Shown here one piece after another: positions 13,472 to 17,859 of a stretch of 64,000 nt of DNA. The stretch is taken from contig NZ_BKZV01000001.1 of NCBI RefSeq assembly GCF_008974285.1, positions 977,319 through 1,041,318 of the forward strand, given 5' to 3'. Source of the stretch: Thermogemmatispora aurantia (GTDB taxonomy: Bacteria; Chloroflexota; Ktedonobacteria; Ktedonobacterales; Ktedonobacteraceae). How positions within the stretch are numbered: position 1 is the stretch's first letter; each line of letters opens with the position of its first letter. Below the pieces are notes generated by a model, which was given only the letters and a program-made list of their open reading frames with translations, was not told the origin of the DNA and ran no database searches. Both the position numbers and the translations under genes were made by a program.

Positions 13472-14012
13472 ATGAAGGCTACAGAGAGCCTGGTCTAGCG
13501 CAGCCTGGTCAGGGAGAGCGACGCGGCACGGCACAGCCAGGAGCTGGTTGCTGGTCAGACTGAAGGGCAAGCAGACAAGGAGGAGAAAGGTATGAATGCT
13601 GAGCCGAGGTGGAGCACTTCACCCTCTGCCGACCCCGCACCAGGCTCACTCAGCCAGCGAAACATCGTGGAATAGGTACGTGGTGGAACAGAGTCTCAGG
13701 CCGGCCCACCTTCAGCCAGCCCAGGCCTCGCTCGGCTCTCACTTAGCGAGCGCTAAGGTCCGAGGTGCGTAATAAGAGCGGTGAGCCGGCTTTTTTCCCC
13801 TTGCACTAAAGCCACTCTCAGGCGCAAGGTAAGGGCAGAAAAGCAACACACCGCACTACCACGGCTCAGGTAACAGCCCGCTATCTTCCTCCCCTTCCCC
13901 AGGCAGCAGGTTCCGTTCCATCCTAACCTGGCGTATGGCCGTGTTTGTATGCTATGCTATTAGAAAAGACTAGCAAGGGATCTGCTTTACTGATAGCACA
14001 AAGGTGAAGGGA
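13472..14012. other. Intergenic region without recognisable gene
   Basis: About 540 bp. A palindromic AGCCGGCT followed by six T (near 13787-13797) could be a weak terminator for the HTH gene. A TATGCT box around 13950 may serve the TetR gene downstream. No coding frame has convincing composition. Confidence 0.4.
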
Positions 14013-14603
14013 ATGGCAGCAAATCGAGGCAATCGCGAAGCACGCAAGGCCGAATTGCTCAGGATCTCGCGCGAGGTCTTCGCCGAGAAAGGATTCGAAG
14101 CAACGACCATCTCCGAGATCGTGGCCCGCGCCGGCGTGGCCCAGGGAACCTTCTACTGGTACTTCCCATCCAAGGCCTCGGTCTTGACAACGCTCGCCCG
14201 CGAGATGCAAGAGCGCATCGAGACCGCGCTCCGACGCGCCTACGATGAGGCCCACAATCTGCAGGAGATGATCGAGCGTAGCGTGGCCGAAACGTTCCAG
14301 ATCATGTCGGAGTACCGCGATATCCTGGCAATCGTGCACTTCAATACCTGCTGGACCGAGCACCCCGCCGAACGCCAGCATATCTTCGCCCCTTACTACG
14401 GGCTGATCGCTGAGATCATCCGCCAGGAGCAGCAACATGGCACCCTTAGCCCAACAATCAACCCCGAGGTGACGGCGATCCTTATCGTCGGTACAGTCTA
14501 CTACGCCGCCGAAGAATGCTATATCTATAACTCGCCCGTCTCCCCCGAGGTCTTCATCGCCGAATGCTCTAGCTTCATTCGCCACGCACTCGGCATTGCT
14601 TAA
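14013..14603 (+). CDS. TetR family transcriptional regulator
   Basis: 196-residue TetR-type repressor. The N-terminal HTH is complete: AELLRISREVFAEKGFEATT, then ISEIVARAGVAQGTFYWYFP at about residues 30-50. The ligand-binding half is helical and includes YRDILAIVHFNTCW. The ATG at 14013 is preferred over the GTG at 14004 because AAGGTG then falls at proper spacing. It sits directly upstream of the R2lox gene in the same direction. The gap between them contains a strong promoter and a perfect palindrome of the size TetR dimers bind, so repression of the R2lox gene is likely. The ligand may be a lipid or fatty acyl compound; that is inference. Confidence 0.9.
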   Translation: MAANRGNREARKAELLRISREVFAEKGFEATTISEIVARAGVAQGTFYWYFPSKASVLTTLAREMQERIETALRRAYDEAHNLQEMIERSVAETFQIMSEYRDILAIVHFNTCWTEHPAERQHIFAPYYGLIAEIIRQEQQHGTLSPTINPEVTAILIVGTVYYAAEECYIYNSPVSPEVFIAECSSFIRHALGIA

Positions 14604-14866: not shown

Positions 14867-16177
14867 ATGACCACCGAACCGGCCCAACAGGAAGGCTTCA
14901 TCGATGTCGATTCTGAACAGACGCCACCGGTTGAGAAAGATCGACTCTATCGCCTGTGGGAGGAAGGGAACTGGTCAGCAAAGGCGCTGGACTTTAGCCA
15001 GGATGCGCTGGATTGGAGAGAAAAGCACGGTGAGCGAGAGCGGGCGGCGATTCTCTGGAATTGTTCGATGTTCCTCGATGGCGAGGAATCTGTAACGCTG
15101 ACGCTGGCCCCCTTCGTGGAGCCGGCTCCGCGGCCAGAGGATAAAATCTTTCTCGCAACGCAGATCGCTGACGAGGCCCGTCACCATGTCTTCTTCGACC
15201 GCTTTATCCGCGAAGTCTGCCAGCTCGGCCAGGACATCAGTACGACGCTGAGCGCGGTTCGTCCTCATCTGAGCTGGGGCTTTGTGCAGGTCTTCACAGA
15301 GCTAGATCGCGCCGCAGAGCGGCTGCGCCGCAATCCCCACAGCTTGCCGCTGCTGGCCCAGGGTGTCGTCCTCTACCACATCGTGATTGAGGGCATGTTG
15401 GCCCATACAGGACAGCATTTTCTCCGCGAATACACCACCCGCACTGGCCTTCTTCCAGCTCTGGGGCGCGGCATCTTCTTTGTCTCCCGCGATGAGTCGC
15501 GGCATATCGCCTTTGGCATCCAGTTGTTGCGCGAGCTGGTGAGCAAGGATCGACGTTGCAAGGAGGCAGCGATTACCATGCTCAATCGTATCCTGGCTTG
15601 GACAGCGGGCGTGCTTGCTCCCCCCAATCACGACTGGTCGTACATTACCTGCCTCGGCTTTACCCCCCAGGAGATGTTCGCTTTTGGTCTGCGTTCGCTT
15701 CATACGAAGTTGCGCCGTGCGGGCATCGATCCCCATGAGGTAAGCGAGCTGGCCAAACTGGGCCTTGATGATCCTTTCGAGGTGCAGGCTGAGCGCATCA
15801 TCAAGTTCATCGAAGGCGGGGTCCTGGGAACTGGGGACGCCCCCCATGTGACCGAGGAGACAATGGAGACTATCTTTACTTCGATGCGCCTGGTAGCCTC
15901 CTGGTCGCAGCAGCGCTCCAAGCCCATCCGCGCCTCTATCCAGTGGCTCTTTGATGACATGCAGCCTCGCTACCTGAAATTAGAGCCGGGCGCACCACCA
16001 GTCACCGGCGTGGGGCGTGTGGAGAATCCGCGGCTGACGCTGCGCTGCTCGGCCAGTGATTGGGCCCGCCTCTCCAGCCGTCGTCTCAATCAGCGCCAGG
16101 CTGTACTCTCACGCCGCCTCCGCATCAGCGGTGACTGGCGGCTGGCACTGGAGCTGCCGCGCCTGCTCGCTGTTTAG
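14867..16177 (+). CDS. R2-like ligand-binding oxidase (R2lox) with C-terminal SCP2-like domain
   Basis: Ferritin-like di-metal protein of 436 residues. All six metal ligands are visible: Glu73 (in DGEESVT), Glu103 and His106 (DEARHH), Glu175 (YHIVIEG), Glu210 and His213 (DESRHIAFG). Val76 and Tyr170 occupy the positions of the Val-Tyr ether crosslink of R2lox, and spacing fits R2lox better than the ribonucleotide reductase R2 subunit. R2lox enzymes assemble a Mn/Fe centre and bind a long-chain fatty acid. Known members are about 310 residues. Here an extra C-terminal segment (about 375-436; LTLRCSASDWARLSSRRLNQ then LRISGDWRLALELPRLL) resembles the end of an SCP2 lipid-carrier domain. The gene follows a TetR regulator and its operator. 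The reaction is unknown. Confidence 0.85.
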   Translation: MTTEPAQQEGFIDVDSEQTPPVEKDRLYRLWEEGNWSAKALDFSQDALDWREKHGERERAAILWNCSMFLDGEESVTLTLAPFVEPAPRPEDKIFLATQIADEARHHVFFDRFIREVCQLGQDISTTLSAVRPHLSWGFVQVFTELDRAAERLRRNPHSLPLLAQGVVLYHIVIEGMLAHTGQHFLREYTTRTGLLPALGRGIFFVSRDESRHIAFGIQLLRELVSKDRRCKEAAITMLNRILAWTAGVLAPPNHDWSYITCLGFTPQEMFAFGLRSLHTKLRRAGIDPHEVSELAKLGLDDPFEVQAERIIKFIEGGVLGTGDAPHVTEETMETIFTSMRLVASWSQQRSKPIRASIQWLFDDMQPRYLKLEPGAPPVTGVGRVENPRLTLRCSASDWARLSSRRLNQRQAVLSRRLRISGDWRLALELPRLLAV

Positions 16178-16390: not shown

Positions 16391-16993
16391 ATGGCGATGT
16401 CTCAAGAACCACAGGCGGAAGGTACCGCGCAAAGCAGCAGTAGCCAGAGCCAACAAGTGATCGTTGTCGACCTCTCCAGTCGCTCCAGCCGCAATAAGCT
16501 GGCAGGACTGCGCCAACGCTTCAGTGCCTGGCGTACTTACCGACGCCTGCGCACCGCTGACAAAGAGGCACGGCTGGTCCAACAGTGGCAGCGCTGGGGC
16601 CGCTTCCGCCGCTGGCGCCGCTCCCGACCCTTTGCCGGCTCCATTCTTCTGATCCTCTCCGGCCTGCTGGTCCTCTGGGGTCCAGCTATGTTAATCAGGT
16701 TGGCCATGCTCCCTGGTAGCACGATTTGGGCCGGCATACTTGTTGGCGCCTTGCTGGTCATTATGGGCGTCATCCAGCTGCTCGTCCCTGCCTACTCGCT
16801 CATCACAGGGGCTATTGGCGTGGTGCTCGCCCTGACTTCGCTGATCGCTTCCTCTTTCGGCGGCTTCGGCATTGGTATGCTACTTGGCATCATCGGCGGG
16901 GCCTTGGGTGTGGCCTGGCGCCCCGTCGCCGCCGGCAAACGGAGCCGTGTGCCACGCCCGTCTCTTCGTACTCGCGCAACGACCCGTCCGTGA
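16391..16993 (+). CDS. DUF6114-like membrane protein
   Basis: 200-residue protein with a polar, basic N-terminal half and four closely packed hydrophobic segments from about residue 82: RPFAGSILLILSGLLVLWGP, then WAGILVGALLVIMGVIQLLV, ITGAIGVVLALTSLIASSFG and GFGIGMLLGIIGGALGVAWR. The pattern RPFxGxxLLxLxGLxxL followed by SFGGFxxGMLLGxxGGALxxAW is that of the DUF6114 family known from actinobacteria. There it is usually coded beside DUF6230 proteins; the next gene here resembles DUF6230. AAAAGGAG precedes the ATG. Function is unknown; it is presumably an integral membrane partner of the exported proteins that follow. Confidence 0.8.
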   Translation: MAMSQEPQAEGTAQSSSSQSQQVIVVDLSSRSSRNKLAGLRQRFSAWRTYRRLRTADKEARLVQQWQRWGRFRRWRRSRPFAGSILLILSGLLVLWGPAMLIRLAMLPGSTIWAGILVGALLVIMGVIQLLVPAYSLITGAIGVVLALTSLIASSFGGFGIGMLLGIIGGALGVAWRPVAAGKRSRVPRPSLRTRATTRP

Positions 16994-17172
16994 ATCCGTT
17001 GCCCTAGAGTTCTAGTCTGGAGTTCTTAGCTCGCAAGGATCGCCAATCAGTCTATCTTCTGAGATCGTTATCCCATGTGCGCCCCTATCCATTCGTCTGT
17101 AATCCCGCTCGTCGGGATTGCATATACATAAATATATATCTGTCATGTAGTACCTAAAAAGGAGAGCGTCTC

Positions 17173-17859
17173 ATGGAAAAAGAGCACGACACCGGAATGA
17201 CCCGGGAGCCAGAGCGCGAAGAAACTAGCCTGCCCATTCACCTGCCGCCTTTCGATGAGGAAAGCATTGACGTCAGCCGGGTGGAGACTATCGAGACCCG
17301 AGCGGTTGCCGACGAGGACGAGGAGCTACCGCCGGTGGGGCGTACTAACCGGACCGTTTTCTGGTCGGTGATGCTGCTCGCGGCCCTGGTGCTCTTTGGC
17401 ATGCTCGGAGCGGTTGAGAACGGGGCCATAGCCCTGGCGGCAGCGGCGCCGGTGCCAGTCACGGTGCAGGCCAAGGTCCTGCAGGCCACAAACTTCCATC
17501 TCTATCCGGGCATCTCGCCCGCCGATAATAGCACGCCGGTGGCAGTCAACCAGCTTGATGGGACCATCACTGACCTGGTGATCAGCAAGAGCATCAGCCT
17601 GGGACCCCTGGGTACAGTGACCGTCAAGCTGGAGGCCGGCCAGAACACACCTGTGTCGGTGACGGGGCTGACGAACGACGCCACGGGGTTGCAGGCCGAC
17701 GAGGGCCAGTTCCAGAACCTCGTGCTCAGCACTGGCCCCAATCCTTTTGATCAGACGGCCACCAGCGCGACGCTGACCAATCTGACCATTAATTCCCCAT
17801 ACCAGGCTGCAAACAGCATCACGCTGCCCGGTCTGACGCTGAGCATCACCCATAGCTAA
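17173..17859 (+). CDS. DUF6230-like membrane-anchored protein
   Basis: 228 residues: an acidic cytoplasmic N-terminus of about 57 residues, one transmembrane helix (FWSVMLLAALVLFGMLGAV), and a beta-rich extracytoplasmic domain. That domain has evenly spaced hydrophobic strands such as LDGTITDLVISKSISLGPLG and a C-terminal LPGLTLSITHS strand. The layout (single anchor, then a Thr/Asn-rich repetitive beta domain with TNLTI elements) matches DUF6230. AAAAAGGAGAG precedes the start. It lies between the DUF6114-like gene and a related exported protein, forming a three-gene surface cluster. No catalytic residues are apparent. Confidence 0.7.
   Translation: MEKEHDTGMTREPEREETSLPIHLPPFDEESIDVSRVETIETRAVADEDEELPPVGRTNRTVFWSVMLLAALVLFGMLGAVENGAIALAAAAPVPVTVQAKVLQATNFHLYPGISPADNSTPVAVNQLDGTITDLVISKSISLGPLGTVTVKLEAGQNTPVSVTGLTNDATGLQADEGQFQNLVLSTGPNPFDQTATSATLTNLTINSPYQAANSITLPGLTLSITHS

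Follow-up and report, generated by a model that had tools for sequence, protein, structure and literature searches.

Why should a protein of the R2-like ligand-binding oxidase (R2lox) type carry a lipid-carrier domain at its C terminus? The question is raised by a gene in a 64,000-nucleotide stretch of the Thermogemmatispora aurantia genome (contig NZ_BKZV01000001.1; the whole stretch is referred to as the window), which encodes a 436-residue protein with an R2lox-type di-metal domain followed by an SCP2 domain (Table 1). The R2lox cofactor is well studied; to our knowledge, no substrate of R2lox has been settled. The fusion is real and conserved. We tentatively consider it likely that the SCP2 domain would capture a fatty substrate and pass it on to be oxidized at a predicted Mn/Fe or Fe/Fe site, a proposal that draws on sequence, predicted structures and analogy.

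Two domains in one protein

The six di-metal ligands (four Glu and two His: E73, E103, H106, E175, E210 and H213) were all matched in an alignment with the Geobacillus kaustophilus protein, for which E69, E102, H105, E167, E202 and H205 and the pair V72/Y162 have been listed (PMC10867098). V76 and Y170 aligned with V72 and Y162, which predicts only a capability for the ether cross-link. All eight residues that a sequence-only reading of the window had assigned were therefore confirmed. By itself, the V/Y pair is not diagnostic of R2lox, because the NrdB-type R2 of the home genome (L005:1300-2397) carries the same two residues in the cross-link columns. The fusion protein differs from R2lox in the second shell: where R2lox has a Tyr (G. 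kaustophilus Y175, reported to hold a metal-bound water; PMC6060897), the fusion has Q183. The fusion protein fell below the cut-off in all five NCBIfam R2lox models that matched (best score, 136.1 bits; cut-off, 194) and was therefore filed as a sister subfamily of R2lox. The predicted fold of the di-metal domain was closer to R2lox than to ribonucleotide reductase R2.

The extra length noted in the sequence-only reading was borne out, since R2lox chains of known structure (G. kaustophilus 4hr0, Mycobacterium tuberculosis 3ee4 and S. erythraea 7qbp) have 316 to 330 residues, compared with 436 in the fusion protein, which adds an SCP2 domain of roughly 105 residues at the C terminus. Pfam SCP2 (PF02036) matched residues 345 to 434 over profile positions 10 to 100 of 101 (E 4.1e-9; 37.1 bits; cut-off, 21.3). 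The home genome has two SCP2 matches, the fusion protein and a stand-alone protein of 107 residues, and the tail matched the latter at E 9.2e-9; none of 2,000 shuffled tails was matched by the stand-alone protein at E ≤10. A fold search with the full-length protein returned R2 proteins and was uninformative on the tail, which was therefore folded by itself. An SCP2 fold was predicted for the tail alone, and its best fold matches were SCP2 domains belonging to alkylsulfatases, Pisa1 among them. The proposed SCP2 character of the tail thus held, but the proposed boundary (residues 360 to 436) was too short, because the first SCP2 helix lay at residues 330 to 348 in the predicted model. A short-reach search with the tail sequence gave eight proteins, all of them R2lox-SCP2, and no other enzyme with such a tail.

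Conservation was examined in 97 aligned fused proteins, consisting of the query and 96 of 120 listed matches, whose identity to the query ranged from 44 to 97%. The other 24 were omitted, five for want of a Pfam SCP2 call and 19 solely for brevity. The eight R2lox-type residues were complete in 95 of the 97, and Q183 was nearly invariant. In the tail, G383 and A412 were invariant, and W360, F362, P367, D398, W399, R416, L418, G422 and L430 were nearly so. This alignment does not reach the degraded-site branch described below.

Table 1. Coordinates of the fusion gene, its parts, its neighbors and the degraded relatives (window positions unless a locus is given)
Feature	Position	Strand	Basis or remark
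R2lox-type/SCP2 fusion gene	14867..16177	+	436 residues; translation and list of open reading frames
R2lox-type di-metal domain	14924..15730	+	residues 20-288
E73, metal-site-1 glutamate (G. kaustophilus E69)	15083..15085	+	alignment
V76, valine position of cross-link (V72)	15092..15094	+	alignment
E103xxH106 metal ligands (E102, H105)	15173..15184	+	alignment
Y170 cross-link tyrosine position and E175 ligand (Y162, E167)	15374..15391	+	alignment
E210xxH213 metal ligands (E202, H205)	15494..15505	+	alignment
Linker, residues 289-329	15731..15853	+	helices 293-296 and 304-316 in predicted model
SCP2 domain, residues 330-434	15854..16168	+	Pfam and predicted fold
TetR-type regulator	14004..14603	+	PF00440, PF17934; 263 bases upstream of fusion gene; context
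DUF6114 and DUF6230 genes	16391..17859	+	downstream of fusion gene; context
Degraded fused genes	L108:7395-8672, L109:5347-6663, L110:2410-3678, L111:1932-3251, L112:7588-8856		E73 and Y170 lost

Distribution and phylogeny of the fusion

The same fusion was found across the genus, in other families and in another phylum. The intact gene was present in all six Thermogemmatispora genomes searched; four named Thermogemmatispora records contain full-length copies with 97 to 99% identity, and the Thermogemmatispora tikiterensis protein was 99% identical to the fusion protein. Among the best 120 of 772 protein matches, 115 had both Pfam domains. The five without a Pfam SCP2 call comprised four that were seemingly cut or frameshifted and one, P0072, that ends within the tail. 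P0072 (731 residues) has an alpha/beta-hydrolase, the R2lox-type domain and the cut SCP2 domain in one frame, which could be a gene-call merger. In Chloroflexota, where up to five candidates per genome were scored, a full-length fused gene was found in at least 15 of 301 genomes, together with one copy truncated by a contig end, and the fused copies among the matches listed all came from Thermogemmatispora's own order. Nineteen other genomes of the same family showed no fused gene at E 1e-60 among the matches listed. In one class of Actinomycetota, 10 of 24 genomes had the fused gene at E ≤1e-70; a further genome (G313) had a frameshifted copy, and another (G314) had copies ending at contig ends and a partial copy including the tail (contig C124). 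Public databases display this architecture automatically, two listed JGI names being "Ribonucleotide reductase, small chain/SCP-2 sterol transfer family"; a literature search, mostly outside subscription journals, found no paper joining R2lox with SCP2 or sterol carrier protein.

In a tree of the R2lox-type domain (65 rows), the 33 SCP2-bearing rows formed one clade with a single change of state; the support, 89/93, is under the level that the tree tool stars. The long-branch haloarchaeal rows L031, L032 and L033 and P0066 were removed from the first tree to make the second, and P0061, P0062, P0064 and P0083, damaged or cut, were excluded from both. The sister clade consists of unfused proteins of the same phylum, namely, the L002 type, the L003 type and family f20. 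R2lox proper fell outside both clades and NrdB further out, with L005, L034 and L035 separated from the fusion at 100/100. On this basis, we class the fusion as a sister subfamily of R2lox that is of the Gln type and has acquired a carrier domain.

The home genome encodes three more R2lox-type proteins without SCP2 (L002, L003 and L004), of which L004 exceeds three of the five NCBIfam R2lox cut-offs. The unfused Gln-type relatives share the same eight residues and Gln183 (L002, L003 and 13 of 14 others measured, the exception being L067, with R at the position of the last His). They have no SCP2 domain, and the 14 measured end 3 to 13 residues past position 288. The tail is therefore not an unrelated extension common to the whole lineage, as some R2lox-type relatives have no extension at all.

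Gene neighborhoods and the proposed function

In the scheme that we propose, the SCP2 domain would pick up a fatty substrate (a free acid, an acyl-CoA or an alkyl compound), whose acyl chain would sit in the SCP2 pocket. This pocket would meet the hydrophobic channel known in R2lox, the predicted di-metal site would activate O2 to hydroxylate or desaturate the chain, and the product might then be handed to beta-oxidation-type enzymes. We take the intact proteins to be oxidases fed by the SCP2 domain that they carry; the analogies are with alkylsulfatases and with the fatty acid reported bound in R2lox (PMC6060897). The alkylsulfatases SdsA1, SdsAP and Pisa1 likewise join an enzyme to a C-terminal SCP2-like domain and act on alkyl chains; we infer by analogy that this domain serves substrate recruitment. 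Their catalytic domain has a metallo-beta-lactamase fold and is unrelated to R2lox. Stand-alone and fused SCP2 proteins, such as human MFE-2 SCP-2L (1ikt) and a mosquito SCP2 that contains a C16 fatty acid (1pz4), are not joined to a di-metal carboxylate protein. GkR2loxI is reported to degrade C10 to C22 alkanes in crude lysate (PMC10867098).

Support from gene context came from the Actinomycetota class, where one or both of two acyl-CoA dehydrogenase genes adjoined 11 of the 15 fused loci examined (L018, L019, L021, L022, L025, L026 and L108 to L112), lying divergently upstream, co-directionally downstream or both. The SCP2 tail was visible in 14 of the 15, L026 being cut at residue 157, which leaves 10 of 14. 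The co-directional downstream dehydrogenase gene followed after 10 bases in L021 and after 67 bases in L018; in L022 and L025 it lay 0.9 and 2.2 kb off. Enoyl-CoA hydratase was encoded 13 bases downstream of the fusion gene in L015. Chance adjacency is rare, because four of these genomes had 13 to 23 acyl-CoA dehydrogenase matches each, but the loci have inherited gene order in common and are not independent. Carboxyltransferase, ECH, HMG-CoA lyase and biotin carboxylase genes lay upstream, as a complete or partial block, in 8 of the 15 loci. Carboxylase/HMG-CoA lyase blocks of this kind serve leucine or isoprenoid breakdown. Because many Actinomycetota copies are near such a block, our guess is that the substrate may be a methyl-branched acyl chain. 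In one Thermogemmatispora species, more than 90% of the fatty acids are reported to be branched and none unsaturated (PMC3367263). A search of the home genome for soluble acyl-ACP desaturase (PF03405) found none, and its sole match to the membrane desaturase family PF00487 stayed below the cut-off; these results agree with that report and are not evidence for the fusion protein.

Several results weigh against this proposal. Probed acyl-CoA genes lay beside none of 11 Chloroflexota loci, the window included. In the sister clade, 12 of 16 loci, all f20, were surrounded by housekeeping genes. With Q183 in place of Y175, the chemistry may differ. The alkane claim for GkR2loxI concerns a crude lysate, and mutating a ligand brought no more than a modest, partial loss of activity (PMC10867098). 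Most directly, five fused Actinomycetota copies (L108 to L112), which form a single clade (support, 100/99), have V or I at E73 and C or T at Y170, and three have also lost H106; they retain the SCP2 tail (145 to 162 bits with a tail profile) and acyl-CoA dehydrogenase neighbors. When the frameshifted L025 and the cut L026 are set aside, these degraded copies account for 5 of the 13 readable Actinomycetota copies; among the 9 readable copies that adjoin an acyl-CoA dehydrogenase gene, they again number 5. Four of the eight intact readable copies (L015, L016 and L018 to L023) have no adjoining acyl-CoA dehydrogenase gene (L015, L016, L020 and L023). Gene context therefore gives the least support for the copies whose metal site is most complete, and the fusion partner and neighborhood outlived a complete metal site at least once.

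The cis delivery of a lipid suggested in the sequence-only reading therefore stands in part. Sequence and predicted fold place both domains in a single chain, within a conserved clade that has acyl-CoA genes as neighbors in its Actinomycetota branch. The window's neighbors are uninformative on lipids, and delivery to an oxidase is not the whole story for every member, given that the metal site is incomplete in 5 of the 13 readable Actinomycetota copies.

The degraded branch bears on a possible but rather doubtful alternative, in which SCP2 would dock or scaffold the protein on a membrane or on a partner such as acyl-CoA dehydrogenase, the R2lox-type domain sometimes being purely structural. 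A useless metal site is hard to square with the retention of all ligands and the Val/Tyr pair in 95 of the 97 aligned members, a set outside which the degraded branch lies, and two genomes (G309 and G311) each hold an intact fused copy alongside a degraded one. It is improbable that SCP2 removes or shields an oxidized product instead of bringing a substrate: the close co-directional dehydrogenase genes at several Actinomycetota loci, such as L021 and L018, are what a hand-off needs, but the sequence gives nothing to tell the two directions apart. Slightly more improbable still is a vestigial structural cap that binds no lipid. Actinomycetota tails are only 28 to 36% identical to the window's tail, so that the pocket may not be conserved, but the 11 invariant or nearly invariant tail residues among the aligned proteins speak against such a cap. 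A chance pattern, frameshift or assembly artefact is refuted by the intact gene in six of six genus genomes, in other families and in another phylum, and nothing of the kind was found for the window's gene, although a frameshift occurs in one relative (L025) and damage in a few database copies.

Returning to delivery to an oxidase, a more specific version, which we regard as unlikely, is that of an Mn/Fe oxidase that loads itself with methyl-branched acyl chains; in one Actinomycetota branch, this protein would have become a metal-poor lipid presenter for acyl-CoA dehydrogenase, the oxidase turning into a carrier subunit. The degraded-site branch would allow a carrier role to be told apart from an oxidase role. 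A natural lipid-carrier fusion, with acyl-CoA genes near some relatives, would narrow the search for R2lox substrates to fatty-acyl compounds, and the fusion's own SCP2 domain could be used as bait for fishing out the ligand.

Other neighborhoods

The neighbors of the fusion gene in the window include nothing lipid-specific; an FAD oxidase gene and aroA lie further upstream. The DUF6114 and DUF6230 genes, separate in the window, form one open reading frame (L011:5519-6667) near the fusion gene of L011. The unfused sister clade also offers support for the proposal: at 3 of its 16 loci examined, all of the L003 type (L082, L083 and L084), an acyl-CoA-synthetase-type gene touched or overlapped the R2lox gene, as called by Pfam for L084 and by BLAST cluster for the other two. 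In the home genome (L084:6990-10059), this gene overlaps the start of L003, and a MaoC-like gene lies just upstream. At the L002 locus, an acyl-CoA dehydrogenase gene was about 5 kb off and a synthetase gene about 7 kb off. The one f20 locus scanned had genes for glyoxalase and a methionyl-tRNA formyltransferase type, along with smpB, priA, coaBC and gmk, none of them a lipid gene; clusters of most of these neighbors recurred across other f20 loci, and no SCP2 was found among the open reading frames called in 8 to 19 kb at each of the 12 f20 loci. On Rhodococcus and haloarchaeal plasmids, R2lox-type genes (L029, L030, L031 and L036) adjoin ferredoxin, alcohol dehydrogenase or aldehyde dehydrogenase genes, neighbors that fit what an oxidase pathway would have.
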